Source: Psococerastis gibbosa (Eukaryota > Arthropoda > Insecta > Psocodea > Psocidae). From it: a stretch of 64,000 bases of DNA. The notes beneath the pieces were generated by a model that did not search any database, had not been told where the DNA came from, and saw only the letters and a program-made list of their open reading frames with translations. Below are positions 22,101-59,460 of the stretch, one piece after another. Each line of letters begins with the position of its first letter. Positions within the stretch are counted from its first letter, which is position 1. The stretch spans positions 1,184,910 through 1,248,909 of the forward strand of contig OZ020491.1 in assembly GCA_963971405.1 (NCBI GenBank), read 5' to 3'. Position numbers and translations under genes: made by a program.

Positions 22101-25100
22101 TTATTCTCAAAAAACTCCCAAAAAACGTCTAAAAACATTATTTCTCAAAAACGGCTGCAACGATTTCTTTTAAATTCACATATCTTGTAGTCGTTATTAA
22201 TGTAAACGAAATGCGGGGGGTCGCTTGTTCCTTGGTAGGTAGCTTCCGGGGGTAAAAAAATAAAAATAACTAAATTTTAATGAAAAATGACTAAAAAATA
22301 ATTTTTCTGCGAAACCTTTCTATCGATGACTTCTACCTTCAGGTATGTTTTAGGTGTTAAATTGAGTAACGAAACCGGACAGGTTACTTGCCCAAAAAAA
22401 CTATTTTGTTTTGTGCAAAAAATGTTTTTTTGAAAAAATTATAGAAAATTCACGCTCAAATGCATGGCGTGCGTGCTCTGCCATTATTGCTGTGTAGTAA
22501 TGTTTTGGTCTGACCTATATCCTATATAGAAGTTTACTTCACCTCCAGTGACGTTGGATGGACAACCTCCCCCCCCCCCCCCCCCCCCGTCCCGAGACAT
22601 CGGAGATTTAACCATAGGAAAATTATTTACCATGAAATTACTCATTTTCTCTGTCTACTAATTTTGATAAATTGGAAAGCATGTTCGAGTAAACTCGGAC
22701 CGGTTCTTGATATAATATATTATGATTTGGTCTATGCCCTATGGTCATGTAAGTTTTAGAGGACTGCTTCACACCCATAGGGTATTATTAATTTTTGTTC
22801 TCCTATTTAAGGAAAGCTTTGTAGTGTGCACAGCGTTGGCAGGGGAACATGGTGGGACATGATAACGGGCTGAGACTATACTAGTCAGTCTGAGTGCGTG
22901 TCGAGTCCTGCTCACCTCCGATTTAATCGTGTCACTTTACCATGTTCCCCAAGTGGTTCGGAATCCACTATAATCAGGAGGTCCTCCCTGTCAGTCAACT
23001 CCCCTTCCCCTCGAGGTGAAAGAGTCTGCCCGTGGGGTGCCTCAAATTAACAAACAGACTCACTCCCCCCGCCAGGCTGACAGGGTTGCTTAAAGCAGAA
23101 ATGCTGAAAGCAGGCGTTGGAAAACAAACAGAAAAGCTTTGTGTTGACATGCACCCATGGCTCTATTTATCGATATTTCCAGTGAAAACTTTTACATAGA
23201 CGCATAGTAAATTACATACGTACTGGTGTCTGGTAGACGCCTGTACTGCAGGAATTGTCCAGTACCTATAGCATATAGAGACTATAAAGGAGCCCTTAAA
23301 TAGCAGGAAATATGGGAGCGGTAGCATATTGCAGTATAGCAATTAAAAAAGGCGATAACAGCACAACCCACAACATACATATACATGGAGAAGAAGAAAA
23401 CAGAGGCAGCAGGGTCTATAAAAATCTAATGATTAACACCATATAAGCCATAAAAACTTTATGAACCTGAACGATAAACAGAACAGATCTAAAGATAATG
23501 CATCTCTGCAGAAAAGTGGACATAAAAACAAGCTGTAAACATGTCTGGGTCGTTTTATGCATTTGTAGACCTAGGCTATATGACTCGTCAGCAAATACGA
23601 TAATCAACTGCTTTGTGTAGGAGTCGAGAAAGATAGCGATGCCGTTTATGAGTTTTAACCAAAGGTGTAGAATGAATAGACTTAGAACCTTGGCAAAGAT
23701 GGGCAATCGGCCGGGCACTAGGTTGAATGATCGCCTACTTGGCATACTGTACCTCAGATAAAGTCAATGAAAATTGAAATCCCAATAAATTAGTAAATAA
23801 GTAAACAAAATTGTTGTTGTTTATTTATTGACCCTAACTGACGAGAAAATCATTAAAACCTTATTTTAAATGTACATTTTTTTTTTTTAAATAAAAGGTT
23901 AAATCGCGTGGCGTGCAAACAATTAGCCTCTTCAAACGCCTCACTAAGTCACCTGATTGGTACTTGCGTCGAGACTCGCACAAGTACAAGCACCTTGCCA
24001 CCGAAGTCACTTTTGCCATCCTGCCCCCTGAAATATATTCAAATGATTCCCTTACAGAGTCATACTGACTTTGAAAACGATATTCTATTATTATTTATTC
24101 ACCCATTAGCTAGTACTTTCCCAGTATAATTTGGAAAGACTTACCCGCCACCTTCCACCCTGTTCGTGTCCCGTAGACGGGGTGGTAGAGAGCTGAGTAG
24201 TATGAACCGGAAGGTTGATATTTGAGACGCAACAAAGAAGGAACTTTTTTTAGCGCAACCTGAATGGGTATGTGCCTTACTTAAATCGATTGGCTGGCTG
24301 AGGATCAGAACCTTCTGAATAGAGCTGTGATCACCAAAGAGGATCCTCTTCCGGTTCCAAGGCCTCTACCTAATCCCCCCCCCCCCCGTTTGCTGTAAAC
24401 TCCCATTTGCACCATTTGCTTACATAACACCCTTACATCACAATAGTACTGTGCAGTGTACATCCCATAGCCACGGAGGACTTTTCCGACGATCATGGGA
24501 AGAAGTATCAGAATCAGGAGAAACCAGGATTTAAGGCACAGGTAAACAAAGAGCAGTGAAACTGCGCGAGTAGGCACTTTTCCTGCAATGACGTTCTTAA
24601 TTGGAAGCCTGGCATAATACCAAATTGAACGTTATTAAACACTGAAAACATGCCCTCTACCATGTCATGTTATGTGAACACTTTTGATTTGTATAAACCC
24701 TAACATTAATAAAATCATGTGAGATGAGGTTCGGTGAGACATTACAGTCGTAAATGGTGCTAGCAAACTGTAGTGGTCCAGCGACTAAGACGACGCCCCG
24801 GTTAGGCGTATATCGTGGGTTCGAATCCTACCAAGTCCAGCTTTTCCATATCCTCTCATTTTGGAACATAATAGGATATATTCATTCAATTGTTTGTACG
24901 CGATTTAGCCTTTAAAAAAAGGGCAAATTTCCACATTGGACCTTCTCTGGGTTGAGTACAGAACAGATAATTAGCTCTGTACCTTGGACCTGGACGGGCG
25001 TAGAAAAGCTGTCGGTTCTATGGGTTGATGCTAAACACGAGGACCCAAGGTACCACCGAAGGCTGGGTATTTTATATGTGGACCAGGCACTCAAAAATGG

Positions 25101-28100
25101 GCCCACTCGTAGATACCAGAATGAATGACAACAATATTGGCCACTGCTCTAGGGCACTACCAGAAAAGCTCATAAGAGCAAACAGGGGGGAAATCAATAT
25201 AGATAGTAGCGCCATAAATGAGATATCATGAAGTAGTAGAAATGTTCCTATACATTTATTTGTGCTTTGTGTAATATGTGGCCGTTACTAACACCGATCG
25301 GCTACAGTTATTGATCCTGCATTGAAAAAAAAACCGGACACTGATAAATTTCCAAAACTGTTGCTGTTTTGTTAGTTAAACTGATGGTTAAGAAATGGAA
25401 ACTGACATACTTCGGCCATGTGATGAGGAACGAAGGGTATCGCCTTCTGCATGTAATAATCCAAGGGAAATAAGGACTGAGGGCTCCCAGCAGAAGAAGA
25501 ACATCCTGGTTGAAAAACCTGAGGTAGTGGTTTGGCAAGAGCGCGATACTCTTCTCAGAGCAGAAGTCTCCAAAGTCCAAATTGCCATGATGATGGCCAA
25601 TATTCGATAGATGAGGCATTTAACGAAGCAGAAGGCGTTAGTGACGGCCCCATGCGCAATGTAACAAAACCTAAAGGAACATGTCTTCTACCGCTACATC
25701 TGATTTATGCCTCAAAAATGGATAGTTTCTGTTATTTTATTCAAAATTAACTGGGGGGACTGGGGGTGACTGATTGCCTAAATAAAACACACACAAAAAT
25801 TCATGTTTTAATAAAACAATAATTGTTTGGGTTTTACTAACTTTACTTTATTTTTTATTTTTTTAACTACAGCCACTTGGCTAAGCCAATGGCAGGCCAA
25901 GATACACCACAAAACTTTGTGACTACATCGTCCAACGCCTTTTTAAGGCATTGCAGGACCAATGACACCCCTAATTTAAGGGCCATCGCCTTAACTCAAG
26001 TTATTATAACACGTTTTAATTAGACACTAATTTAGAGTATGCTTACTAAAATGAAATACCACGAAGTCACGAGTACTCAAATTTTTTCTATTTTACGATT
26101 GTGTCTTAACCCTTTTGCTGACCCCCGCATTGCAGGTCACGATACAAGAGGACACCGTTGCAACCAGAACTAGCCACGGCAAATCTAGGTTTCCGTGGTT
26201 TCGTGTGAACCTAGTGAAATTTGGTACGAGATGATGACCACTGCTCCAGATATACCTTGATTGCCCGTCGTCGGTTATTATGTCCAGCGGTGGTATCCGG
26301 TAGGTCTGCCATTACAGGCCCACTTAAATGGCGGTATCCTTGCGACCTTGACTATGGGTTTAAGCACATGAAAAAACTGAAACTCATGTATACGCAAGTA
26401 TGGAATCGTGAGACCACCGTAATATTATCTTTTTTTTTTGCAGTTTTGGCAGACAGGTAGGCATCTGACAATAGGTAATTAGGTACGATACTGGCTCTCA
26501 GCCCCGGCTGGGTGGGCGTGATTTCGTTGGCAATCTATAGAAGAATATAAAAGAACCGGTCCGAGTTTACTCGAACATGCTTTCCAATTTATCAAAATTA
26601 GTAGACAGAGAAAATGAGTAATTTATGGTAAATAATTTTCCTATGGTTAAATTTTCGATATCTGGGGGGGGGGTTCCCACCTGACGTCACTAGAGGTGAG
26701 GTAAATTCTAGATAGGTCAGAACTACACATTACCACACATCAATACTGGCAGGGTACGCAATGCATTTGAGCGTGAATTTTCTATAATTTTTTCAAAAAA
26801 ACATTTTTTGTACAAAACCAAATACTTTTCTGGGAAAGCAACATGTTCGGTTTCGTTACTCAATTTAACACCTAAAACATATCTGAAGGTAGAAATCATC
26901 GATAGAAAGGTTTAGCAGAAAAATTACTTTTTTAGTAATTTTTCATTAAAATTTAGTTATTTTTTTTTTACCCCCAGAAGCAAACTATCAAGGGGCAAGC
27001 GACCCCCCACATTTTATCAACATTAATTTCAGCTACAATATATGTGAATTTAAAAGAAATCGTTGGAGCCGTTTTTGGGAAACAATTTTTTTAGACGTTT
27101 TTTTGGAGTTTTTTGAAAATAAAACCCCCCCAAATTGAGTAAACCCCAAAATAAAAAAAAATCGTCCCGAGGTATGATTTTTGTAAACCTACTTGCCGAA
27201 TTTCTTCAAAATCGACCGAGTAGTTTGCCCGGAAATCGACGCACAGACAGACAGACAGACAGACATACAGACATACAGACATACAGACAGACAGAGCGAC
27301 AGACAGACATTTCGTAAAAACCACTTTTTTGGGTTCCTGGGACCTCAAAACGTGTAAGTCCGTTGAAATCTCGGAATCGAAAATTTCGACCATAACAAAG
27401 CTTTCCTTATACTACGCATAAATTGGAAAGCAATAAATTTAAAATACACACAGACTTGACTTCGGCTTCGGTTGGCACGTCCAGCCCCGGGGGGGGGGGG
27501 GGGGGACTTTTGGCCGCTGCCACAACACCACGCCACCTCGGACCAGGGACGGATCCTTGGGGGGGGCGATTTCTTACTCAAGTAAGGGAAACGCGATATT
27601 TTTCAGGTCACCGCCCCCCCCCCCCCGAAAACTTTTTCTGAAACCGTCCCTGCCTCGGACGATCTTCCACCGCTAACTTCCAGTCTCGGGTGCCGGTGGC
27701 GTGCACATCATGGAGCACTCCATCTTAGTCTTGGCCTACCGGGACGACAGTCCATAACTTATCAGACATCTGGGGACTGGGGATTTTAAATGGATCGTCT
27801 TTCTTGCTGACCAAAGCGTTATTGGGGCGTAGGAAGTTATGGCAGCCGCGTTTTTTTTATACTGTGAAGTTAGTTGAATGAATAACGACTTCATTGCGAC
27901 AATACGATTGGCAAACAATAAGACTATAATTTTTTTTTCATGTTAACCATAGGTAATAGCAGTATACATAGTAATATAACTTAAATTAAATGCTATATAA
28001 AACGAAAGGGGGAAAAAATAATAAAGAAGGAGGGTATAGGAGGGGAAAGGGGGGGGGGTCCATTGTTTGTACCGCTACGAGGCCAGTTTATGCATACATA

Positions 28101-31100
28101 TACATATATGATATATTTAGTGTGGAAATGGAGCGAAAAATGAAATAGGTAGAACTCAAAATTACCTGTGGCCTCTTCGGCGTTATGAAATAACATTTAA
28201 AAATACAACATAGCCAGCAACCAAAACAGTTAAGAGTCAAGACTGTGCACAATGTCTCAAATCTGGGTAACAAACTATTTAAAATTAACAGTACAATACA
28301 ATATTGTGTGAGAATATCATACTGGTCGTAAACTCATTAATATAGACGTCCATATGCATTCCTCACAAATACCCCAATGGTATGAAACTTCAAAATAAGG
28401 TGGGAAAAAAAATGATTCCGGCCAGGATCGAACTGGCGACCTTCTGCGTGTAAAGCAGATGTGATAACCACTACACCACGGAACCAATGTGCCAAGAGCT
28501 TGTCTTATAGCCGCACTTGAGCTGAGGGCCTGCGCAGTCCCGTCTCGGGCACTTACATAGCGCCCAGTTCAATGCAGCGGCACAGTTGACAGTGCTTTGG
28601 CGGCTATACGTCGTTTTTCATTGTGCATGTGCATGACGAGGTAGCAGACATCATTAATTAATATGTCTCTGTCGAGTTTTAAGGAGACTAAAATGTAGAT
28701 ACTTAACTTATCTATTGGCTTATTAATGATGTCTGCTACCACGTCATGCACATGCACAATGAAAAACGACGTCGGTGGAATAGCCGCCTTTCCAATTTAT
28801 ACGTAGTGTAAGGAAAGCTTTGTGAAGGTCGAAATTTTCGATTACGAGATTTCAACGGATTTACATGTTTTGAGGTCCCAGGAACCCGAAAAGGTGGTTT
28901 TTACGAAATGTCTGTCTATCTGTATGTCGCTCCGTCTGTTCATAGATTTCCGGGCAAACTATACTCAGTCGATTTCACAAAAATCATACCTCGGGACTAT
29001 TTTTAATATTTTGGGCTACCTCAATTTGGGATAAGATTTCTTTCAAAATTCGCATATATTTTAGCCCTTATTAATGTTAATAACATGTCACTTGCCACTT
29101 GATAGTTTGATTCTGGGGGTAAAAAAATAAAAATAACTCAATTTTAATGAAAAATGACTAAAAAATAATTTTCCTGCGAAACCTTTCTATCGATGATTTC
29201 TACCTTCAGGCATGTTTTAGGTGTTAAATTGAGTAACGAAACCGGACAGGTTGCTTTGGTTTTGTGCAAAAAAAAACGATTTTTTGAAAAAATGATAGAA
29301 AATTCACGTTCAAATGCATTGCATTGTGTGGTAATGTGTTGGTTTGACCTATCTAGAATTTACCTCCCCTCCAGTGATGATAGATGGACAACCCCCCCCC
29401 CCCCCCCCCGAGATATCGGAAATTTAACTATAGGAAAATTTACCATGAAATTACTCATTTTCTCTGTCTACTAATTTTGATAAATAGGAAAGCATGTTCG
29501 AGTAAACTCGGACCGGTTTTTTCATCTTATGAGTGATAGTCAATTGTGGAATGGGAAGAAAAAGGTTTGTAGTACAAATAAAATAATAAATAAATCCACA
29601 AATTACTTTTTGTTCCATTACTAAGCCGACCAGACGGAGTTAGGGCTATAAAGCCCTCTCTTACACTCAACTAGGAAGGCCCGGGACCGCCTGCTCTACA
29701 TGCCCTCCGAACCATGCATGGAAAATGTAGGAAGTTTAGGACTCGAACCAACAACCTTTCGGGTGAAAGTCAGTGTCCGTACCACTACTCTACATGAATA
29801 ATGGAAAACGCACCATGCTGCATGTAATTTTCTTCAGCTTTTATTAAGACATACCTGAGTACAACAGACAGTTGATCCATTTTTGATACATCTTGAATTG
29901 TATCAAGGATAAGACTAAAATACTGGGAGGATTTAATTTCAGCTATAAGTTTTTTTTTAATAGCACAAACCTGGAACTGGGAGCCGAAGTCCGCCCCCCC
30001 CCCCCAGCATTGTTGTGCCCCCGCACCGCGGGTGTTGCGAGGGTGTTATTTACGCCACTGCATACCAGGTTCAATAACTCTTTGTGATCGGTGCTAGTGA
30101 CACAATGTACATCAAAATGTACAGTAGAGGAACATTTCTTCTACTTTATGACATCTGATTTACAGCTCTTCATATTTCCCATGCATTTTTTTTCCCCCCG
30201 CATAAGGCTTTTGCCCCATTGCCCAGGAAAGTGGCAACAAAAAGAAGTGGAATGAATAATTGAATATGTATATACTGTATATTGCCTGTTATAATCAAGA
30301 GCCTGGCTACATTGCAATTAGCATACCATAGAGATGGAGAAAACTGAGTTAGCATGCCGATCGTAATACACAACGACATTTCTATAGGACAAAGAATGCC
30401 GCTGCACCAACACCTGGCTTATCACCTGACAGATATGACAATACCTCTACTTGTTACCTCTCCACATTCCATTTGCACGTGCGATTTTTTTTAATACTCG
30501 CATAATATAGTTCATTTACGCACTGTATTTCACACATTATTTCAAAAATAATAATAATAATAATAATAATCATCGCATACAAATATGGAGAATAGAGGGG
30601 AAAACGCGTTTTCCTACTAATATAATAAGAATTATAAATAATTTGTCTAAATCTAAGGCAGAAAAAATTAAGAAACTCACCAAAAATATAGCCGAAGATC
30701 ATTCAATTGTTTAAATAGACAAAATTTAAATTTTCCTCACTTATACGAGATTATGAGATTTTTGGTTTAAGGAGACTATTATCTAGACACTTATCTATTA
30801 TAAATTAAGTTATAATATGTTAGAGACATGTCTCAACCATATTATAACTTAATTTATAATAAATAAGTTAAGTATCCCATAATTGTCTCATTAAAACATA
30901 AATCTCATCATTTTTTAATGCACAAATTAAGAAAAAATGACAAGTGGAATAACTGCCTTATACAATTTTGTATTATATTACCCCCGGTATTAAAAGCACC
31001 ATGATCGGGTGACACCATGAGAGCGGCTGCATTTATTACTAAGTGATTCCTCTTATTTTAAGTGTACAGCTTGATAGTTGTGTTATCGGATTGAGAAGGA

Positions 31101-34100: not shown

Positions 34101-37100
34101 AGTATTAGGCCGTTGTGCCATAACTTTCATATAATTTGTACTGTATCTATTTAATAATATAAATATTTCTAGAGCCCATAGGAATAGAAACTTATAACTA
34201 ACCGTATAAAAACTAAACTATATTATATGTGATATGTCTGCTATTACAAAGAAAATGAAAAAAACATTACCACCATACCGTTTTTGCGAATTGACAATTT
34301 TCGGCAGTTACCTTTTATCTATTTAAACACATTATATTGCAGTATTATATGGTGCATATAACACTGGCATTAAATTAACTTTGGTTGCAGAGGTAACCTC
34401 CACACAAAAGTCGAAATTAGAGGATATATAGAAAAACTGGGCTGGTTGGCATTCGAACGCACGATCTACGCCTTAACGCCTTAATCCCGCCAAGCTCAGT
34501 TTTACTAGGCTACAAGGTCTGTCCGGAAACTAATAGGACTGATTTTTTTCCACCGCGAATGTACTTTGGAGAGCGTACGCACCGACTGGATTCGTTATTC
34601 GTTAGAGGGGGTTCTTAGCTAACAAACGAGTGGCTGGTAAGTTGTCTCCGAGCAGCACACGGAAAGTCAGGACAGGCTTTTTCGCGCGAAGTGTTTCTGT
34701 GAGTGGTGCAAGCCGAAAATGCAGCTTTCGTTTGAGCAAAGGTATGCGATTAAATTCTGTGTGAAACTCGGTAAATCTGCGACAGGGACGTTTGATATTA
34801 TCAAGCAGGCTTACCCAGATGGTGTTTTAGGAAAAAGTGGTGTGTTTCAGTGGCCCAAGGCCTTTTCGGAGGGCCGGGAAAAGGTCGCCGATGAAGACCC
34901 TGCTGGAAGACTTTCAACTTGGACAATCACCGACAATGTCATGCTCATTTCCTTTTTTGACATCAAAGGCATCGTTCACCATGAATTTGTACCTCCTGGA
35001 CAAACCGTCAACGCCAAGTTTGACGTGGAAGTACTCAAGAGACTCAAACGAAGGGTCAATCGGGTCCGACGAGACATCGCAGCCGACTGGACGTTCAGCA
35101 CGACAACGCCCCGGCTCACACCGCCTTTGACCAAGTCAGGCATCCCAATGCTTCCGCAGCCGGCTTACAGCCCAGATGCCCCCCCCCCCCCCCCGGACTT
35201 CTTTTTGTTTTCTCGCCTGAAAAGGCCGATGACAGGAAAGCATTTTTGAGACGACAGAGGGGAGCAGCTTGCACCGCGGCTCTGTAGGCTATTCCTGAGA
35301 ATGCCTTCCGTGACGCCTTAAATGCTTGGAAATCGTGCTGGCAGCGCTGCATCGACGCAGAAGCAGAGGCGGTCCCAGACCTCATAAAAGGGGGAGGCAC
35401 TTGTCAGTGCCATAACGATAGGTTTTCAAGGGGGTATAATTTGGCGCCTCTCCGCACCCACTTTCATAAAAGTTGCTCAGGAGCCAAAGGGCTGAAATAT
35501 TGGGGTTTTATGCATTTTGAGAGCAATAAGGCTTATACATTAAAAACAATCAACATAATTGTGGACAAGGGGGGCTCGGGGGTCTCCCCCGGGAGAAATT
35601 TTTTGAAAAATAAGGCTGAAATAGTGAGGTTTTACCCATTTTGAGAGCAATCTTCTTCTTCAAGTCACAGCCGGATGGCTGGTTAGCAGCAACATATGAC
35701 TTGGATGCCTCGAATTATACACGGTTGCTGGTTCTTGGGATGGCACTTGGGCCTATAGTGCGGTGGTTTCCCCTTGCCTTCCGCATCCTATGCCGTTGAC
35801 CGTCACCTGTTGCCAGGATCCAGTTCGTTCGCCTTTATTAGGGAGCTTTTCGTCTCCCATGGACAAGAGGGTGCCCATGCCCTAACTCCACGGAGTTAGG
35901 AGGGGGGTCTTTGACCGAACCCCACTCGGTAACTGAGAGCAATACGGCTTACATATTACAAAGAATCAATCTAATTGTGGACAAGGGGGGCTTGGGGAAC
36001 ATCCCAAAATCGGGTGAAGTCGTAGGCAGCACTGTTGGCCTGCCATAGGTCATCCCTCGTGCAAATAGGGCTGAAATAGTGGGGTTTTGCGAATTTTGAG
36101 TGCAGTAACACTTAGATTTTAGAGGCAAAGAATATAACTGCTGGCCAAAGGGGGGCAATTGCCCTCAGTGCCGGTCGCTGTGTCCGCCTCTGCGCAGAAG
36201 GAGTCTACTTTTAAAGTTTTTAAAGAATTGTAACGATTGGCTCAATAGATTTTTTTTAAATCGAATCAGTCCTATATTACTTTCCGGACACACCCTGTAT
36301 ATCCTCTAATTTCGGTTGTCTATTAAAAATTTTAAAGCGCATACTAGGCCGATGGTGAATGAATGAGTTTTACAAATACTGCTTATAGGTTAATAGCTTA
36401 GGTTGTATTTTCTCATTGTTCTCTTTTTTCTGCTTTTTTTTTACGTTTGCAATGGCAGAAAATAGCAGAAAATAACTGTACTTCTATTCTCATGTTTTCT
36501 ATGATATTTTGTTATATTTTTTACAGGTGTAACTGGTGTAAACTGAACCTGTACAAATGTAAATAAATAATAAATAATTTAGCTCGTATGATATTTAGGG
36601 GGGTTCAGCCCCCTTCTCTGTGAGGGAACACCTAAGCGTCATATGCAAACTAGCACCACTGAAAGTCTCTCAGACATCGTTCCCAATACCATACGTTAGT
36701 AACGCAACTTTTTCAGGTCTTCTAGCTGTTTTACATAACTCAGGTTCAAAAGGCCATCCGCTTTACCAGCCGTAAATATACAAGCTGCCATCGACCAATA
36801 CAAACCAGATCAGAGAAATTTTGGAACTGGCCCGGTTACATAACAAGCCCCCCATGAGAACTAGTTGTTTTGAAAGTAACAACCAAATAAACTTTCACAC
36901 ATACGGCCATAGTAAGTCACTGTCACGCGTAACTGCCCATGTGCAGGCCGTTCCTGCCTAAGCGCCCCAAAGTTTAGCCTTCCCCATTTGTAATATCGAA
37001 TGATATAATAGAGGGTGATCCAGATCAGTCGTACCGTCTTCTATACCTGTTCCTCATTTTAAGTATGATACTATTAAAATTGGTAATGCTTACCGAAGTC

Positions 37101-39069: not shown

Positions 39070-39620
39070 TCTATTTTTTTTAAAATTTTCCCCCGGGGGA
39101 GACCCCCGGTCCCCCTGTTTGGAGCAATATGAATATGCATCCCTTTGCAAGCCTTCCTGCTGTAAAACAACACTGTTTCGCACTTACATTTAAAAATTTT
39201 CCCCCGGGGGAGACCACCGGTTCCCCTGTTTGGTGCAAAATGAATATACATTCCTTTGCAAGCTTTCCTGCTTTAAAACCCCACTGTTTTGCAGTTACAT
39301 TTTCAAAATTTTCTTCCAGGGGAGATCCCCGGTCCCCCTGTTTGGAGCAATATGAATGTGCATTCCTTTGCAAGCTTTCCTGCTGTAAAACCCCACTGTT
39401 TTGCAGTTACATTTGCAAAAATTTTCATCGGGGGAGACCCCCGGGCCCCCCACTTTCGGTTAAATGCAATATAATTTTTATGAATAAGCATTCTTTTGTA
39501 GACTTTTTCAAATCCATAATTTACTGCTGTTAAAATGCCTAAAACCCAACTATTTTGCGTTTATATTTTCAAATTTTTCCCAAGGGAGAGACCCCCGGGC
39601 CCCCCTCTTCGGGTTAAATG
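39070..39620. repeat. Tandem repeat, about five units of 110-150 bp
   Basis: Units share AATTTTC.CC.GGGGGAGACC, then GGTCCCCCTGTTTGGAGCAA, then CCTTTGCAAGC.TTCCTGCTGT. Starts are near 39087, 39196, 39307, 39419 and 39572. The open frames here on both strands arise from the periodicity. Confidence 0.72.
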
Positions 39621-39646: not shown

Positions 39647-39651
39647 CGTCG
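39647..39651. other. Left target-site duplication of Transib (CGTCG)
   Basis: Identical to 43905-43909. A 5-bp duplication is diagnostic for Transib/RAG-type integration. Confidence 0.92.
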
Positions 39652-39687
39652 CACAGTGGGGTATTTGCCCGATTTAGCTGGCCAAAA
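39652..39687 (+). repeat. Left terminal inverted repeat of Transib
   Basis: 36 bp, beginning with heptamer CACAGTG, identical to the inverse complement of 43869-43904. This is where the transposase would nick and form hairpins, by analogy with RAG1/2 and known Transib. Confidence 0.93.
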
Positions 39688-39920
39688 GTGATTTTTGCAA
39701 AATGTAACAAAGTTGAATCAATATAGGCTAATTTTATTTAAAAAACTTCAAAGTTTTTTAATTTAAAAGATTGGCGGCAAAATATAACGCGGTTTTTTTG
39801 CTATTACGTTGCCAAAGTGGCTATTTGTTTGTTTTTGTGAGCATTTTTTACGCAACACTCAGCACAGCCAAATTTGTGTTATTTTTAATTTTGTAAGCTC
39901 TGTTTGACTTTAACCCCGTT

Positions 39921-42900
39921 ATGGATTTGGACAAAGAAGGTTAGTAGAACATTTTAATATTATGTTTGTTTAGTTTCATGCTATTTAATTGGGTTTAAAT
40001 TGCTGATGAAAGTGACAACTTTTGCTAAATTGCAATTTTTTTGGCTTTTCAAACTAGGAATATGTCAAGAGCCCCACCCGATCCCGGGCTATCTCTTATT
40101 ACTGTGTATAGTTTGACTTATTGAGATGAAGGATTAGTAGAAATCTCGTCCCCGTTCGTCCCCCTTTTCCTACAATATTCACTGAAAGTCTGGTCTGCAA
40201 CCTACATTATATTAGTAGGCAGATATACTGTAATGTGTTCCTGTAAGATAATGTAGGCTCAATACTTTAGTGATGAACCCTGAAACCAAAATGAAGGTAG
40301 TATTTACTGTAGAATACTAAATTAAGCACACATTTAATTTTATAATTGAATAATAATGCATGGAAGTTAATAGCAAAACATTTCACCTACTAGGTACTGA
40401 GTATAACTTTTATGCTTACATCACAGCACATGTAGGCTAAATGTTGCAATTACGCTTCCTAAACAAATATTATTTCAATGTATCGCATAATTAATAGCCT
40501 ATTGTTTATTTATTGGAAAAAGAACGATGAGTTGGCCATCTGTGTGACTGAAGTTGAACTAATTAAAGTGGTGGAGACGCAGTGCGCCCCGGCGCGCTGT
40601 TGTCTGCTGTCAGCTATAGGTAAACCCTGCTAGAGGGCGTGGCAATGCCTCTATTGTACATAGGCCCAAATTTCCTTGGCGTTTACTAATTATTAATTTT
40701 TTTCTTGCAGAAATGCGATTTTGGTCGTCCAAAATCAGTCACAAAGACATTTATTGTAAGATAATGACCAACAGTGGGACGAATTTCGACGAAAAATGCA
40801 ACAATTTTAAAGAAAGCGTGCCACGTTCTTTATTAGGGAAATTCATTAGATTGAAATCCAAGCTGAACGAGAGAAGAAAGTGTTGTAACTATATGGATAA
40901 TCGTTTCGTAGAAAAACACCGCCAGTGGTTGGAACTGGTATGGCACGAGGGAGGTACAGAGGTAAAGCCGGGACGGCCAAATGCGGACTTCGCTTCTAGT
41001 TCGGGTCGGACAAAAAGAAGGAGGGTGAAAAAAATTGTGGAGGAAGTTGATTCCCAAGAACTGCTTCTTGCTGCTCGTTCTAAGATATATAGAAAGGGGA
41101 AGAGGCAAGCAGCTTCAGTAATGGATGGCTTGATGGGTTCTCCTTCAAAAGTGAAGAAAATTAAGATGGTAATAGAAGAGGACCGGCACAGCAGCTTGGT
41201 GAAAAACACACTTACTGCGAAAGAGGCACTCGGAATGATCGTGGACGCAGATCTAACTAGAAATCAGTATAATATCGTTAGAGGCACAGGCACAAATAAA
41301 AAATTGTACCCTTCGTACAGTATTGTCCAACGAGAAAAGAGGAAATGCTACCCGGCTCCAGAAGCTGTAACCATAACTGAAACAAAGGCGGAAGTGGACT
41401 TAAAAGAACTTCTAAAGCTGACGACGCACAGGCTATTGATAGCTTTACCGGAAATGCCAGAAGAACGCGAGCTCACATTAATTTCGAAATGGGGCTGTGA
41501 TGGGAGTCAGCAGGCAGAATACAAGCAGGTCTTCAAGGACGAAGTAAATGCTTCTGATTCAGCAGTTTTCCAAAGTTCCATGGTGCCATTGAAACTCGTC
41601 TCGACTCAGACAGGACTACCGATCTGGGTGAATCCTCTGCCTTCTTCTCCGCGATTGTGTAGGCCTATAAGAATTCATTTCAAAAAAGAAACTGCCGAAG
41701 GGACACAAGAAGAGATGCAGCATATTGAAGATTCGCTGACAGGTTTCAATAATGTAACTTTGAATGTCTTTGATAAGACATACAAAATTAAAGTAATTAT
41801 GTTACCCACAATGGTTGACGGAAAGGTGTGTAATGCTGCTACTGACACAAGATCCACTATGGCATGTTACATTTGTGGAGGTAACATGAACACTTTCAAT
41901 GATCTGACGATATCGCGAAAGGTAAATGAGGAGAGCCTGAAGTTTGGGTTATCCACTTTGCACGCTAGAATAAGACTAATGGAAAGCATTTTAAAAATTT
42001 CGTACAAGCTGCCATTGAAAAAGTGGAAGGTGCCGAAAAAAGACGTAGAAGGGAAAAGAATAATGAAAGAAAGAAAAAAGGAAATTCAACGCAGATTCAA
42101 AACGGAACTGGGCCTAATTGTGGACGTGCCAAAAGCAGGGGCAGGCAATACCAACGATGGCAATACATCACGAAGATTCTTTGAGAGTCCAGAAAAAGCG
42201 CATGATATAACAGGTGAGTCGAATGAAGAAATATTTTCCTCCTCTCTGTTCATATACTACGTAGGTACCCTACTGTTTATTTTTGAAAACACATTACATT
42301 GCTATATAGGCCTATATAAAATGCTCAATTTATCTCTAGTATATTATATTAACTTGTTATTTATTTGTTCCAGGGTTTGACTTATCCTTAATCCAACGCC
42401 TCAAAGTAATCATCGAGGTATTGTGTTCTACGAGGAAAATTGATGTTGAAAAATTTGGAATTTATACGAAGGAAACTGCCGAATTATACGTGACAAATTA
42501 TCAATGGTACCCAATGACACCGACCCTCCACAAGTTGTTGGTCCACGGGCCTGTAATAGTCGAGAGCTCTCTTCTGCCTATTGGTATTTAATTTAATTAC
42601 TAACCTATACTTTTTCAATGATGTGATTGTACTGTATTCTATATACCTATTACAATAGTTTATATAATTATATATTTTTCATTAATTATTCGATTTAATT
42701 TTAGGCCAGTTGTCAGAGGAGGCAGCGGAAGCACGGAACAAAAGCCTCCGCAAGTACCGCAAGGGGTATTCGCGAAAATGTTCTCGCATAGCCACAAATG
42801 AGGATGTGTTAAACAGACTGCTTCTAACTTCAGACCCCTTGCTGTCTCTTGAATACATCAATACACGGCTGCATAGAAGACCATCCAAAAAATTATCAGA

Positions 42901-42964
42901 AGAGAGCACTAACATGCTAATTATAGAGGAGGAATCAGCCAGCTCATCAGAATCAGATGAATAA
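39921..42964 (+). CDS. Transib transposase, RAG1-related, 663 aa, 4 exons
   Basis: Catalyses cut-and-paste transposition of the surrounding element in the nucleus; RAG1 of vertebrates descends from this family. Exons are 39921-39939, 40711-42213, 42374-42583 and 42705-42964, all GT-AG and in phase, with no stop. The start ATG at 39921 is the only one that joins by a GTTAGT donor to the CAG acceptor at 40710; a fallback start is 40713. Visible residues: first catalytic Asp D270 in KWGCDGS; second, D376 in MVDGK; zinc ligands C392 and C395 in CYICG; the conserved NTNDGNTSRRFF at 487-497; H560 and H565 in LHKLLVHG; and catalytic Glu E586 in EEAAEARNK. The D-D spacing (106) and the H565-to-E586 spacing (21) are close to those of RAG1. 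An N-terminal region with several Cys/His residues and a basic KRRRVKK (possible nuclear signal) precedes the core. Intron 2 is open in frame for 55 codons, so a retained-intron truncated form is possible. Confidence 0.93.
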
Positions 42965-43316
42965 CTGAAGGGGAAAGGGAGCCAATAGCAGAAAGTTGCC
43001 TCTGATCTCTCTACTTTTTGCAATATACAAATCGGCACTGTTTTAATGTTTAATGTTTTAAATTTCCTAAATCCAGCTTATCGGGGTATTTAGCCTGCTT
43101 GTATTGTACCACTTAATGTTTGCCTTTGGCATTTAATGAATCAATATCTAGGCCTACATAGGCTACCGAACGAAAATATTTTGACCAATTTAAAGGCTAG
43201 ATTCAGGTTATAAGCTGATCTTGACTACCCAAATATTTGATTATTTATTTATTTAATAAATAAATAATTTATTTATGGCTGTCAAAATTTGCATATCAAC
43301 TAATATGATATATTTC
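42965..43316 (+). other. Transib 3' UTR segment
   Basis: Follows the transposase stop. AT-rich, with AATAAA-type words near 43255 that could serve for polyadenylation. No other feature. Confidence 0.4.
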
Positions 43317-43825
43317 CACCTAAATATGAATTTTGGCCTCAATTAGCCCATAATAAGCTGAGATATAGACTTTTGCCGATTTTGGCCGCCATCTTGAATT
43401 TTTTTTAACAAAAATTTTTTGTAATTTTTTTTCTACCTAAGATGCACCTAAATATGAATTTTGGCTTGAATTAATTCATAATAAGCTGAGATATAGAATT
43501 TGGTCGATTTTGGCCGCCATCTTGGATTTTTTTTAACAAAAATTTTTCGTAATTTTTTTCTACCTAAGATGCACCTAAATATGAATTTTGGCTTGAATTA
43601 GTTCATAATAAGCTGAGATATAGAATTTGGTCGATTTTGACCGCCATCTTGGATTTTTTTTAACAAAATTTTTTTGTGATTTTTTTCTACCTAAGATGCA
43701 CCTAAATATGAATTTTGGCTTGAATTAGTTCATAATAAGCTGAGATATAGAATTTGGTCAATTTTGGCCGCCATCTTGAATTTTTTTTAACAAAATTTTT
43801 TTGTAATTTTTTTCTACCTAAGATC
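43317..43825 (+). repeat. Four tandem 127-bp repeats in the Transib 3' region
   Basis: Units begin CACCTAAATATGAATTTTGG at 43317, 43445, 43572 and 43699. Spacing is 128, 127 and 127 bases, and a partial fifth copy stops at 43829. Each contains TTTTG(G/A)CCGCCATCTTG, the complement of a CAAGATGGCGGC core. They end 40 bp before the right terminal repeat and have no counterpart at the left end. Confidence 0.9.
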
Positions 43826-43868
43826 CACCTTTCCACCAAGTTTCATGAAAATCGCTTGATTTTCTGAG

Positions 43869-43904
43869 TTTTGGCCAGCTAAATCGGGCAAATACCCCAC
43901 TGTG
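43869..43904 (-). repeat. Right terminal inverted repeat of Transib
   Basis: 36 bp, perfect inverse complement of the left repeat. The pairing ends at base 37, where left G faces right C. Confidence 0.93.
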
Positions 43905-43909
43905 CGTCG
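43905..43909. other. Right target-site duplication of Transib (CGTCG)
   Basis: Directly follows CACTGTG at the element end and matches the left copy exactly. Confidence 0.92.
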
Positions 43910-47480: not shown

Positions 47481-47854
47481 CTATGATTTTTTACGACCTG
47501 GCCTATCGATGAGCTGAGATAAAAAATAGCATAAATTACACATCATTCCAGAGTGATCAACTGGGTTTAACCATTTATGGCATATCTCACACCGGTTTGG
47601 CTTCCCTGCAGTGTGGATTCTCCTATGCCTGTCAAGATTGCTCTTTTTAGAGAACTTTTTCGCGCAGACGTCACACTCAACCGGTTTTACTGCATGATTA
47701 ATATGCAAATGGGTCCGCATCATGGAAGGGTCTCGGAATCGTTTGCGACAGACCTCACACCGGTATGGCTTATTCCCTCGGGGGGTTTTATTTGTACAAT
47801 GGAACAATCCCTCACTAGGTTCTTCCTTCTTCTTGGGAACATGCATTTGTATGC
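47481..47854 (-). CDS. C2H2 zinc-finger protein, C-terminal exon
   Basis: The terminal exon encodes 124 residues after a split Gly codon and ends at TAG 47481-47483. A Lys/Glu-rich lead (VPKKKEEPSEG) is followed by one complete finger YRCEVCRKRFRDPSMMRTHL...H and a second VECDVCAKKFSKKSNLDRHR..H, joined by a linker. A third, degenerate finger (NRCEICHKW) lacks the final histidine pair. The tail is basic (GRKKS). Such fingers bind DNA, and the product is probably a nuclear transcription factor. Acceptor TTTCAG/GCATAC accepts the donor at 49076 in phase. The upstream exons are not resolved. An ATG just inside the exon could also act as a start. Confidence 0.78.
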
Positions 47855-48077
47855 CTGAAATGGTTAGAAAACAATTATATTAAAACTAAACGTCACATAT
47901 TGTATCGTATATAAATATCGTGATGAAATCCAGGGTGCAACATAGGTGAAATAACAAGCGTTTAATGAGAGTGGACTCCGCACATTGGCCTGTAAGTAAA
48001 GCTTAAAACAGTTCCCCCAAAATTTGGGTGGCACGTCACTGCAAAGTCCAACAAAAAATTATCAATGTAATGTTCAC

Positions 48078-55300: not shown

Positions 55301-58300
55301 AGAGGAAGGCCAAGGAAGAGATACAGAAGTTCTTAGGGCCCTTTTATAGCAGGCGGGTAACCACAAAAAAAAAAACGTAGGATAAGCGTCTCCTTCCGTG
55401 TTTAAATTGGCCAGTGTTTCCTTCTTATAAGCCTAGTGAAGCTTATTTTAAAAAGAGACTACGTTCTATACAAATAAACAAACTCCAAATTTTTCTTATT
55501 TTTATTTTTTGCTTGACCCGCGCGGTTACCCGCCTGCTTTAAAAATATTAGGTGAGTCGGACGGGTACCAGGGGAAGTGTGAATAATTACAAGTGAGAGA
55601 CAGGAGGGAGTGGAGGAGGAGCACCGATCACACTAAAACAACTGACGCTGATTGCTGATTATGATGAAGAAAAATATTTCAAGCACATTACATAACATAG
55701 CATTATTGTATTGTATTATTATTATATTCTTTATGTTTTTATGTTTATTTCTGTCGTCCGTTTGCAAAAGGGGACAAGTGTCTTCATTTGAAATTTACAG
55801 GAGAGCCAAAATTTAGTTGTACACGTTTCGTAGGACTAAGAGTGAAATTGTCTCTTTTTGCTACTTCTGAATAGCATAATAAGCAAGTTTTTGTCCTTTT
55901 CTGCAAAACATAGCACTTGTCCCCTTATGGAACATTTATTCAGTCTTACTTGTCCCATTTTGCATCTGTGCTTGAAATTCAAAGCGTTGATATGAAGCTA
56001 TTAGACTACCTTTTGCAACTGTGCCTTCACACGTTGTTCTTGAGCATGTCATCTACCGGAAAACATTAGAAACTCTTTTTTTTTTTACCTTTTGCACATG
56101 GACGACAGATTTCTAGTTACAAACTCACCCGTTGGGCAGGAAATTCGCGCGAGTAAGGAAGCTGGCAAGATAGCAGACGACCTTTACCCGAATGAGCGTG
56201 GATTCTGTACTAGTCTCCACCTTGCGCCACAGAGCCTTGAGAAAAGAACTGGCAACGGGCCGATGTACGCTGCAGAGGTAAAACAGCAGGAACTGCACGT
56301 GGGAGCATTGGTAAGTCTTCAGTATGCAATCATTAAAAGCCTGCAACACAAAATACGTCTAGATTATGGTCTGGACAAAAATTGAGCGGTTCACAATGTA
56401 AAGGATACCAATCAAGGATGGGATGGCTGAATTAAAACAAATCCCCCAGTTCGTTTCAGGAAGCTGTTTCTTGCGCAACTTAAAAGTAACAAGAACGACA
56501 AAGTGCCTATTAAGACATTAAAGCGTATTTGACCGCACATAAGCACAAGAGTCACTTTACTTGTCTATTAAGGCATTAAAGCGTATTTGACCGCACGTAA
56601 GCACAAGAGTCACTTTACTTGTCGATGAATTATTTTGCCGAAATATCCGCGATAGTTGGGGAAAATCGACAACTGTATGCAATGATTGCTTGGCTGTTCG
56701 CCCCTATCATGCTGCAGGAGGTTAAGCGATAATACGCAAACGAGCACCTGAAACAAGTTCCACTTAGATATCCAGCTGAGAACTAAACACAGCCCCCGTT
56801 AGCTAAGCTGATCTCAGCTGCAGGAGGCTATATATGTTTAAAATCACCTGCATGAGATCGTTATAGACGACTTTGACATTCGCCACTGCTAACTCGCCCC
56901 CTCCCGGCCGACTGACTCCGTCAATATATTGAAACATTCGCAGCATAGCGCAGTCATAGGCGTCCACCGGGGAGCCTGCTTCCACTTGTTCCATCATTTC
57001 CTCCATAGTCGTGTGAACATCCATAGTGGTCATTCGGTCTATGACCATGACGAGAATATGTCGACGGTGCTCGGAAAGGTAGTTTGCGACATGCAGCGTG
57101 TTGTACAGGTACGACAGATGTTTGGCGGGCGAAACGAGGAAGTCTGGGAAATTTGAATCCAGTTTGCTTAATATTATTTCGTCAGTCCTGAAAAAAAAAA
57201 TTTATTGGTTAATTAGGTTAGTAATCGATAAAAAGACTATTTGATGTTCTATATAATAATACATGTAGTAATAAAGTAATACTTCATAAGTGTGATATTT
57301 TTGACAAATCCTTGTGGGAGTTTTCTTGGTGACTTCGAGGAACATCTTGGGGAGAAGTAATAAAGCACTGTAAATTAATTATATATTATGAGAACAACCC
57401 AGGGCAGACAAGACGGGATAAGATATGAATAAAGTGATTAGGTGTTCACTCATTTGAAGAAGATTTTATGAAGATACCCATACTCCATACCTAGACTGGG
57501 ATTACTTGAGACCTCTGCACACAGAACTAACAGGTAGCAGTGTAAACCGGTGTACGTGGTTGCCAGTTACTTTCAAGAGTTGTACAGGAACATGAGAGAG
57601 ACGGAAGGCATGACAGAATTTAGGATAAAACCAACGTCTTCTAAAAAAAATGCTTGTATGTGGAGGACACATGATGAGGGATTAGACAAACATTTCTGAT
57701 CTTTGATGTTGCGTATCGTTTGTCCTTTGGATGTAATTTAAGAGCATTTGTAGCTGTTATTTGTAGCCATGTTATGGGTTATGGTGGTACCTCCATGTTC
57801 TTAATATAGTGACCATAATCCCAAGGATGGCATCCAGAAACGGAGGCGCTACACGCAATGGCCAATGTGACGACTAACCATATTTTCCTTTTTAATTTAA
57901 AAATGAATCTAGTATGTAATGTATGTCACAATAATACTTACATGGGAACAGTCTTCTGAATGGATTTGAGTATCATATGGACATTCTGAAATTGCGGCGT
58001 GCCAGTCCAATTAGTCTGTTTATCGGTCCAATCCACGCCGTCGGTGACAGCAAATAGCTTAATTAATTGACCAATTACAAACTCGGCGAAATACGAATGC
58101 ATCATAATTAAATCTGTGATGAATTCGTTGTAAAGTCGCACGACGCGCTTGGACCGCTGATTCCATCCTAATATCACGAGAGCTTGCACAAAATGTCGTA
58201 ACTCATAGTTCAGCAATGGCAAACATTTCACCGAGTCTTGTAGTAGTTTTACTAATGCATCGTCGACGAATGTGCTGTCTCGAAGAACGCCGATAAGCTC

Positions 58301-58471
58301 TGTATAGCGCGCCTCATTTTCTCCACTCTTGTAGTCGCTGACGATTTTTGGGATGTCTTCGGGGAGCTCAACACGTACCCGATTAAGTTCCAAATTATCT
58401 TTTTGCTTTAATATTGATATGATCGTGGAGAGGTTGGAACTGTCTTCTCCCTGCTGTACGCTATCTGGCAT
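50355..58471 (-). CDS. RRN3: RRN3 / TIF-IA, RNA polymerase I initiation factor, 6 exons, ~588 aa
   Basis: RRN3 bridges RNA polymerase I and the promoter-bound selectivity factor to start rRNA transcription in the nucleolus. Exons are 57942-58471, 56848-57187, 56129-56340, 53806-53984, 53019-53238 and 50355-50640, all GT-AG with matching phases. Family-typical segments appear in the expected order: VDDALVKLL and RHFVQALVILGWN in exon 1; SYLYNTLHVANYL in exon 2; HVQFLLFYLCS (residues 304-314); SFLTRANFLP; VHPVFYNVCQSMFYLIAFR (393-411); SLNPL (437-441); YQLV.C..VMERNDR; and FFPFRPYLLKRSRKYI (484-499). The acidic EDNDFL near the C-terminus also fits. The human protein is about 650 aa, so this one is slightly short. 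The start is the first in-frame ATG with conserved downstream sequence. The last exon is read to TAA at 50355; an alternative donor at 50443 exists, so the last ~30 residues are uncertain. A minus-strand AATAAA lies at about 50235-50240. Confidence 0.92.
51018..51403 (+). pseudogene. LINE ORF1 remnant: PHD finger and coiled coil
   Basis: The Cys/His spacing (C-x2-C, C-x2-C, H-x2-C, C-x2-C) is that of a C4HC3 PHD finger. The frame stops at 51209, and the coiled coil continues in another frame from 51188, so at least one frameshift separates them. Presumed ancestral role: RNA/chromatin binding in the LINE particle. Confidence 0.72.
51440..51819 (+). pseudogene. LINE reverse transcriptase fragment
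   Basis: 119-codon open frame covering the fingers region of a non-LTR reverse transcriptase: N-terminal YRAL.LNSSIGKLIEVV, then LSPNQYAYRPKSGTDKAI, then the first catalytic-Asp region (CHIDLNKCFDVI). The palm motif with the YADD-type pair and everything after it are deleted. Confidence 0.8.
52098..52545. mobile_element. hAT-like element inside the LINE, perfect 8-bp duplication
   Basis: Ends CAGGGGTTCTC and GGGAACCGCTG, flanked by TCTTAGAG (52090-52097 and 52546-52553). Subterminal GTCCGTGGACCAC and GTGGTCCATGGACC. The interior holds a T run (52279-52305) and a family 2 short repeat. Confidence 0.86.
53019..53238 (-). CDS. RRN3: RRN3 exon 5 (residues 421-494)
   Basis: Acceptor TTTTTTCAG, donor AAAG/GTACGT. 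Encodes QSLNLAKIVHCSLNPL and FFPFRPYLLK. Reading past the donor meets a stop after 15 codons. Confidence 0.91.
53640..53745 (-). repeat. Fragment of family H end
   Basis: GGGACCTCAAAA.GTGTAAGTC and GAAAATTTCGACCATCACAA match the first ~100 bp of the Helentron-like family, minus orientation. It overlaps the start of RRN3 intron 4. Confidence 0.55.
53806..53984 (-). CDS. RRN3: RRN3 exon 4 (residues 361-421)
   Basis: Acceptor TCTGTAG/GTTTCT, donor AAAA/GTAAGT. Encodes MSNWIHKYI and the conserved VHPVFYNVCQSMFY core. Confidence 0.91.
54047..54286. mobile_element. hAT-like element with perfect 8-bp duplication
   Basis: Ends CAGCGCCGGACG and CGTCCACCCCTG, with inner GGGTAAAGCGA/TCGCTTTACCC. TATACAAA flanks both sides. 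Contains a G run. It sits in RRN3 intron 3. Confidence 0.82.
54367..54521. mobile_element. Foldback MITE, partial copy 6
   Basis: Right end GGTGGAATGGCCGCCTTA and the GTAGCAGACATCATTAATAA and AACGAAACAAACGTCAATGA segments shared with copy 1. The left arm is missing. Confidence 0.62.
54765..55115 (+). repeat. Interspersed repeat (family 3), longest copy
   Basis: Contains CGGGGGGAGTGAGTCTGTTTG, CACCTCGAGGGGAAGGGGAG and GGATTCCGAACCACTTGGGG; matches 22821-23118 and 18541-18755. It is flanked on both sides by tRNA-like SINE pieces (54700-54745 and 55150-55220). Confidence 0.62.
55220..56128. other. RRN3 intron 3, otherwise unassigned
   Basis: No recognisable element. Short runs of ATT/TAT repeat at about 55705-55735. 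Confidence 0.4.
56129..56340 (-). CDS. RRN3: RRN3 exon 3 (residues 291-361)
   Basis: Acceptor TTGCAG/GCTTTT, donor GG/GTGAGT. Holds the most conserved block, CSHVQFLLFYLCS, through FLKALWRKVE and YLASFLTRANFLP. Confidence 0.92.
56506..56630 (+). repeat. Tandem duplication of a ~62-bp unit in RRN3 intron 2
   Basis: CATTAAAGCGTATTTGACCG and AAGCACAAGAGTCACTTTAC occur twice, with two or three substitutions between the units. Confidence 0.8.
56848..57187 (-). CDS. RRN3: RRN3 exon 2 (residues 177-290)
   Basis: The acceptor is a poly-T tract with CAG. It encodes SKLDSNFPDFLVSPAKHLSY and the Met-rich VMVIDRMTTMDVHTTMEEMM segment, and ends DLMQ/GTGATT in phase 0. Confidence 0.88.
57942..58471 (-). 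CDS. RRN3: RRN3 exon 1 (residues 1-177)
   Basis: Starts MPDSVQQGEDSS. It contains the N-terminal HEAT-like helices of the family and ends CCCAT/GTAAGT in phase 2. Confidence 0.9.
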
Positions 58472-59460
58472 TTTCAACTGAAATTAAGAATTTAACTGTT
58501 ACAATTACGACCAGCATCTAAACTATGGAGGTCCAATCAGCCAGCTTCCAAGCTTAGACACGCTTACCCTAGACATTGCAACTGGTGTTAGCTCGACTTA
58601 TCCAAGCATGGGAACGAGTTCACCCTATCTTCTTCTTTAATTGCCTCGTCTATCGAAGATTGGCGATCATCATCTCTCCATGATATTCTTATGTGCATAT
58701 CCACATTTCAAATACACGGATTTTGTTCGTTATAGCTTGTATCAAAGTGCATCCCTCCATACCACTTAGAACGATTGGGAACAAATATAACTTGACGATT
58801 CTCGATGTGTTCAATGCGGCTGCGAATTTTCTCAGTCACCTTCCACTGACTGTTTACTAAGTATCCGAGGTACAGGTATTGTTTACATTATACTAAGGTG
58901 TTGTGTTCAAATTAGACCAATATTAAGATTCTATATCTTTGCCCTCTTACTCACAGCCATCACAGGGGTGGCATGGGTCTTTCGTGGCTCGGTATTCATT
59001 GAACAGCAACTGGCCATCCAGAGGATTTTATAAACTCGCTAAGACTCCCCTGCATTCTATCGTTCTCAGGCATTCTGTGTTATCGTTGGTGTATGCCACT
59101 GTGACCGCTGCCTGTGAGTCAACAAGGAATGCGACAGGTTTTAGGTATCACGTTTATTTCATCGCTTAACGTTGGGACGTTGTTTGGAGGGTTGTCCTTA
59201 CACAGCAGCGGCGTTTGTTCTTCTAGACATCAGTTTCAAGCTTGTTTCTAGAAGACATCTCGAGAATGTTTATGATTTTAGATATCAAATGAGATCTTAT
59301 ATATATACGATGATTCCTGAGGCGACTTGCTGTTTACGAGTCAATGTATGTAAAAGCATACCCAGGGATTTGGTATGAATCGTATGCTTCTGCAGTTCTG
59401 CACCCGATGCAGCTCGAGCTTCTTCGACACTGAAGCATATGTTGGCGTCAAATCGAAAGA
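58472..59460. other. Upstream region of RRN3
   Basis: Should contain the RRN3 5' UTR and promoter, but no clear core element is visible. A LINE scrap at 58630-58680 (CTCGTCTATCGAAGATTGGC) is the complement of the LINE tail seen at 25600. Confidence 0.4.

Follow-up and report, generated by a model that had tools for sequence, protein, structure and literature searches.

The 64,000-nucleotide stretch of Psococerastis gibbosa DNA analysed here (GCA_963971405.1, contig OZ020491.1, positions 1,184,910 to 1,248,909 of the forward strand; hereafter the window) carries an intact Transib transposon whose ends begin with CACAGTG. The window copy, which we place with high confidence on chromosome 8, belongs to a family of 23 almost letter-identical intact copies in the assembly; the family therefore appears to be the product of a very recent spread that is probably still under way. 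The element is very probably a complete, autonomous cut-and-paste Transib, descended from one recent founder that most likely came from another species and has since reached at least 23 sites. This kind of element is already known, and a similarly fresh spread has a precedent in Transib1 of Drosophila melanogaster.

Structure of the Element

The 36-bp inverted repeats at the two ends are perfect and symmetric. Counted with the flanking CGTCG included, the repeat extends to 41 bp at 98% identity, because the middle base of CGTCG cannot pair. The features of the element, in window coordinates, are as follows.

39652..43904, plus strand: complete Transib transposon, 4253 bp, delimited from its ends, duplication and gene; one of 23 copies in the assembly
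39652..39687, plus strand: 5′ terminal inverted repeat, 36 bp, starting CACAGTG (comparison of the ends)
43869..43904, minus strand: 3′ terminal inverted repeat, 36 bp, starting CACAGTG on the minus strand (comparison of the ends)
39647..39651, unstranded: left target-site duplication CGTCG, 5 bp (flanking sequence; a single CGTCG in the unoccupied paralogue L059)
43905..43909, unstranded: right target-site duplication CGTCG, 5 bp (flanking sequence)
39921..39939, plus strand: transposase coding exon 1, beginning MDLDKE (GT-AG model; identical in 23/23 copies)
40711..42213, plus strand: transposase exon 2, with the GRP motif at residue 94 (like that of the nonamer-binding domain, NBD), D270, D376, C392 and C395 (GT-AG model, HzTransib alignment)
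42374..42583, plus strand: transposase exon 3, with H560 and H565 of the zinc-binding part (GT-AG model, HzTransib alignment)
42705..42964, plus strand: transposase exon 4, with E586, the C-terminus and the stop codon (GT-AG model; alternative acceptors at 42717 and 42726)
43317..43830, plus strand: tandem array of a 127-bp unit, four units in the window copy (two to six among the copies)

The original prediction for this DNA had claimed perfect 36-bp inverted ends beginning CACAGTG, a perfect 5-bp CGTCG duplication and an unbroken spliced transposase gene. All three are present at the positions above, the gene being a four-exon one with three GT-AG introns and a predicted 663-amino-acid DDE protein. 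The heptamer was rejected as evidence on its own: CACAGTG occurs in the window at chance frequency (seven times against 5.0 expected, a count reached in 27 of 100 shuffles). The identification as a Transib rests on the combination of paired ends, duplication and gene.

Copies in the Genome

The assembly as searched holds 409,210,807 bases in 68 contigs. The genome note describes 409.21 Mb in 69 scaffolds, with ten chromosomes and a 17.08-kb mitochondrial genome (PMC12559846). Among six contig ends, two carry the TTAGG telomere repeat, two are N and two carry another repeat. A DNA search found 23 near full-length copies on seven autosomes (23 of 23 candidates scored), so that the search for copies above 98% identity proposed with the original prediction yields 22 besides the window copy.

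Fourteen of the 23 copies are letter-identical over 4252 bp, and the window copy differs from them by one extra T within the 127-bp array. This array sits inside the element near its 3′ end, and most of the variation between copies falls there. The original prediction had reported neither the array nor the further copies. One-base T changes are found in L001, L017 and L018; L019, L020 and L021 have one or two array units more (L021 also one further base), and L022 and L023 have two fewer. There are four substitutions in total; L018 carries three of them and L016 the other. The coding sequence (1992 nt, stop included) is identical in every copy, as are introns 2 and 3; in intron 1 a single copy of the 23 differs.

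A scan of the whole genome with the outer 30-bp end pattern, allowing up to three mismatches, gave 46 matches (45 of them exact), which are both ends of the 23 elements. CACAGTG starts all 46 ends; the copies were found via their sequence and ends, so fully lost ends would escape. With a 20-bp pattern and up to two mismatches there is one further match, which looks chance-like. It was rejected as a miniature or diverged relative, with only 16 bp in common and no partner end in the 2.9 kb examined on its inner side. Reversed-pattern controls for the two scans gave zero matches. The 3′ part of the element matched only places within the 23 copies (best 40 of 46 candidates). A protein search with the 500 residues of exon 2 returned the 23 copies at 100% identity, free of stops (25 of 25 candidates scored). 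Apart from these copies, the searches of the genome turned up a single trace of a Transib, a relic of a different one on the X chromosome (C20, 17067266-17068019; L057), in two pieces of 38-39% protein identity with one stop each, two in all. Deletion derivatives, solo ends and copies of intermediate divergence were all absent within the reach of the DNA, protein and end-pattern searches.

Target Sites and Unoccupied Paralogues

All 23 copies are flanked by a perfect 5-bp duplication, GC-rich as is usual for Transibs. The duplication fits CGNCG at 20 of the 23 and is one base off at the other three. In element orientation the sequences are CGTCG (seven copies), CGCCG (five), CGACG (five), CGGCG (three), CGCTG, CAGCG and CGTCT (one each).

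When joined, the flanks of the window copy match a very abundant repeat that contains the target site (2194 first-look candidates). Among the best 40 of these candidates, 66 matches are listed, of which 40 span the join and 26 are shorter left-side pieces. Six paralogues were fetched, and each is free of gaps across 60 columns around the site and has a single 5-bp stretch there: CGTCG in one (L059), CATCG in four and AATCG in one. These empty sites, which the original prediction had proposed to look for, are paralogous unoccupied targets and not the other allele.

A combined search took ten further joins from among the 22 other copies and scored the best 40 of 3019 candidates. At that depth the L022 join (145 bp) is matched at 100% at no fewer than 15 places and at 99% at two, the L019 join at 91-93% at 22 places or more, and the L008 join at 95% at one. 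The remaining seven joins had no match among these best 40, which says little at that depth. The right flank of L014 contains a stretch that the L019 join matches at 93%. L022 adjoins a Pao-type retrotransposon peptidase piece (Pfam, on unjoined flank pieces). The host element at L022 looks young as well, because the joined target is letter-identical at 15 other places. L006 is inserted in the coding part of another retroelement, with reverse transcriptase and RNase H (Pfam, unjoined pieces), which is probably of the long terminal repeat type.

Age and Probable Present Activity

The four substitutions fall in 97,796 bases, or 4.1e-5 per base (95% interval 1.1e-5 to 1.05e-4). With mutation rates taken as 1e-9 to 5e-9 per generation, values not measured for P. 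gibbosa, the point estimates of age lie between about 8,000 and 41,000 generations, with intervals reaching from about 2,000 to 105,000. The genome note gives a heterozygosity of 0.64% and an assembly quality value (QV) of 60.4 for the same animal (PMC12559846). The pairwise substitution difference between copies is about 8e-5, 78 times below that heterozygosity; the spread therefore appears to postdate the typical coalescence of the host chromosomes, and would have taken far less time than the coalescence of host haplotypes. The recent, possibly current, activity suggested by the original prediction is strongly supported by the 22 near-identical copies, the unoccupied paralogues and the unchanged gene.

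A few observations weigh against this simple picture. Three of the four substitutions sit in L018, so the copies are not strictly of one age; leaving L018 out, one change in 22 copies corresponds by hand arithmetic to about 4,000 generations at 2.8e-9. Chromosomes 1, X and Y have no copy across 88.5 Mb, with a probability of 0.003 when these chromosomes are chosen afterwards. We do not claim that they are avoided, because the distribution as a whole does not depart significantly from one proportional to length (Monte Carlo p 0.24). Near-identical repeats are also difficult to assemble, and the near-identity might be an artefact, either one element copied to many places or repeats over-corrected. 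This we regard as extremely improbable, given that the 23 copies have distinct flanks, each with its own matching duplication, and that array-length variants and substitutions survived in the assembly. The mean read length of about 9.4 kb (22.19 Gb in 2.36 million reads; PMC12559846) also exceeds the length of the element.

The burst may instead have been recent but already finished, the copies being intact yet silenced, e.g., by PIWI-interacting RNA (piRNA). Invading transposable elements are often silenced quickly, and four substitutions among 23 copies permit some thousands of generations since the spread. The lack of deletion derivatives and the coding exons unchanged in all copies speak for continuing movement, and we hold a finished burst to be possible but distinctly the weaker prospect. 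It seems rather likely, if far from assured, that the invasion is in its first phase: a single horizontal founder with at least 23 copies of unchanged transposase, no deletion derivatives as yet, and insertions that are still transposing and segregating.

Probable Origin of the Founder

The genome searches yielded no diverged or deleted relatives, from which we infer that the founder arrived recently. A horizontal origin is favoured because the founder has no vertical relatives there, and appears to explain the recent burst best. Wide movement of Transibs from host to host has been reported (PMC9435367). The founder could also have been long resident and vertically inherited, surviving in one or a few intact copies until a recent reactivation. 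The broken relic on the X chromosome shows that the lineage encountered Transibs earlier, and a single founder of either origin would yield the same star-like pattern. At 38-39% protein identity, however, the relic cannot be a recent ancestor of the family, and no copy of intermediate divergence appeared by DNA, protein or end pattern within the reach of the searches. Reactivation of a resident seems rather unlikely.

Carriers were sought in viral and prokaryote contigs, which gave 7 and 37 pattern stretches, respectively, with no confirmed relative in scans that reach close relatives only; viral or bacterial carriers were therefore dropped as candidates. The exact 27-bp Transib end is absent from the viral contigs scanned. 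We found no account of a P. gibbosa Transib in a literature search that had most subscription papers and the repeat databases outside it, and the main text of the genome note contains no word beginning "transpos" (PMC12559846).

Transposase Gene and Protein

Enumeration of splice sites near the expected places leaves three GT-AG models, of 663, 659 and 656 amino acids. They differ solely in the exon-4 acceptor, and the catalytic E and the other two acids are kept in all. We adopted the 663-residue model because it alone retains in full the stretch GQLSEEA, which aligns with HzTransib of Helicoverpa zea. The codons of D270, D376 and E586 lie at 41499-41501, 41817-41819 and 42728-42730 of the window.

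In a PDB search, the predicted transposase matches HzTransib (6pqn) over residues 175-656 with an E-value of 8e-116 (390.9 bits) and 202 of 470 aligned residues identical (43%). D270, D376 and E586 align with D126, D225 and E436, the names given to the HzTransib catalytic acids (PMC6941560); we matched these names via a constant offset of 17 from the chain numbering, hand-counted on the alignment. Much weaker matches are those to amphioxus RAG1L (E 3e-5) and vertebrate RAG1 (E 0.0018-0.0057), and the catalytic C-terminal part of vertebrate RAG1 is recognisable in the alignment. C392, C395, H560 and H565 form a C-x2-C and H-x4-H pattern, which we take to be the zinc-binding part of the RAG1/Transib core; zinc binding is predicted from the pattern. 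A Pfam scan returned RAG1 only, with an E-value of 3e-4 and 19.3 bits, below the Pfam cut-off of 25. The assignment to the Transib superfamily, as a single gene for a RAG1-core-like DDE transposase, follows from the HzTransib match and not from the Pfam threshold. The last 60 residues hold no Cys and one His.

Relation to RAG and V(D)J Recombination

The recombinase of antibody genes (RAG) arose from the Transib family, and the original prediction had seen in this element a specially useful living relative of the ancestor of V(D)J recombination. The consensus heptamer of vertebrate recombination signals is CACAGTG (PMC8289069), exactly that of the P. gibbosa ends, and there is a likeness to the RAG1 NBD in the region that follows the GRP motif. 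Both features could be taken to mark unusual closeness to the RAG ancestor. Heptamers identical to this one are, however, reported in other Transibs (PMC6941560, PMC8355894), and an NBD-equivalent with GRP has been described for both Transib subgroups (PMC9435367). The likeness to the RAG1 NBD after GRP (residue 94) is also weak, its local score being reached by 21 of 2000 shuffles and its end-free score by one of 1000, and a separate PDB search with the NBD-like N-terminus gives the start of the HzTransib core only. We do not put it forward as a novelty.

The two ends are identical over 36 bp with equal spacers, and show none of the 12/23 asymmetry of recombination signal sequences (RSS). At spacers of 12 or 23 (±1) bp, the best nonamer matches are five and six of nine, at 22-23 bp and with the same spacer at both ends. 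Shuffled sequences reach these scores in 1175 and 237 of 5000 cases, near chance, and an RSS-like nonamer was rejected. A RAG2-like partner was likewise rejected: no long frame besides the transposase exon lies between the ends, in a search that would miss a gene divided among small exons. On the minus strand, the three longest frames contained in the element (131, 124 and 93 amino acids) have no Pfam match at E 0.01.

The transposase is also far nearer to HzTransib than to RAG1, and special closeness to the RAG ancestor is very improbable. The sequence comparisons place the P. gibbosa element as a RAG1 relative in the way that other Transibs are, with nothing marking closer kinship. The symmetric ends, near-chance nonamer, missing RAG2-like frame and heptamers found elsewhere thus weaken one half of what the original prediction had inferred, and the half concerning activity stands. 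Transib Subgroup II is described as further from RAG1 than Subgroup I and as having a CTT2 tail in place of CTT1 (PMC9435367). HzTransib itself would, going by that account, be a Subgroup II member. The closeness to HzTransib and the Cys-less tail suggest that the P. gibbosa element belongs there too.

Proposed Mechanism of Spread

The outcome of transposition is directly displayed in the genome, as exact ends, insertion at CGNCG, a precise 5-bp duplication relative to unoccupied targets and an unchanged transposase. The steps proposed here are drawn from work on Transib and RAG (PMC6941560, PMC7204232, PMC8289069). The transposase would bind both 36-bp ends and, by analogy with HzTransib and RAG, cut between the duplication and CACAGTG. 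Hairpins would be left on the flank, as reported for HzTransib (PMC6941560). The freed element would then be inserted at staggered CGNCG sites, giving the 5-bp duplications. Copy number may rise when cutting follows replication or when a sister copy refills the gap, and gap refilling or replication slippage may change the number of 127-bp units.

Surroundings Within the Window

Immediately left of the insertion is a 112-bp GC-rich tandem array (39077-39450). A mariner-type transposase piece lies at 34641-35249 on the plus strand (Pfam Transposase_1, 25.0 bits against a cut-off of 24). On the minus strand, Pfam matches identify a C2H2 zinc-finger coding piece (47481-47879) and two coding pieces of a gene for RRN3, an RNA polymerase I factor (56803-57201 and 57938-58483). 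A further repeat of about 0.7-1 kb has five copies in both orientations within 20 kb, mostly 80-89% alike, at the following positions.

10210-11080
16939-17816
21827-22718
26549-27277
28788-29796

Comparison With Other Transib and RAG-Like Elements

HzTransib shares with the P. gibbosa element the single-gene organization, the catalytic acids and symmetric ends (PMC8289069). It differs in that the P. gibbosa protein has about 170 residues preceding the part aligned with the 497-residue solved chain. HzTransib is active in vitro (PMC6941560), whereas the P. gibbosa element is known from sequence alone. The ProtoRAG and RAG-like transposons have 5-bp duplications, ends starting with CAC and a RAG1-related transposase in common with it (PMC7204232), but possess a RAG2-like partner gene, and their amphioxus RAG1L is only weakly similar. 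Vertebrate RAG and its signals differ in the 12/23 asymmetry, the convincing nonamer and the RAG2 partner.

D. melanogaster acquired Transib1 from D. simulans in 2013-2016 (PMC12230796, PMC12974806). Transib1 resembles the P. gibbosa family in its very recent spread, near-identical copies and 5-bp duplications, and the two would share a horizontal origin, an inferred one for P. gibbosa. For Transib1 the donor, dates and segregation of insertions are reported as established (PMC12230796, PMC12974806), whereas the P. gibbosa element is read from one assembly. Transib1 is shorter (3.03 kb against 4.25 kb) and is described with degraded older fragments and copies with large internal deletions; the end scans of P. 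gibbosa revealed no internally deleted copy.

In the literature that we found, few natural Transibs show clear signs of being active today, namely HzTransib in vitro and Transib1 in Drosophila. The 23 intact, near-identical copies in P. gibbosa provide naturally occurring transposase and end pairs for comparisons of Transib and RAG. The 127-bp array varies between copies while the remainder barely does, and may serve as a genealogical marker. The P. gibbosa family also offers a chance to follow an invasion before decay begins.

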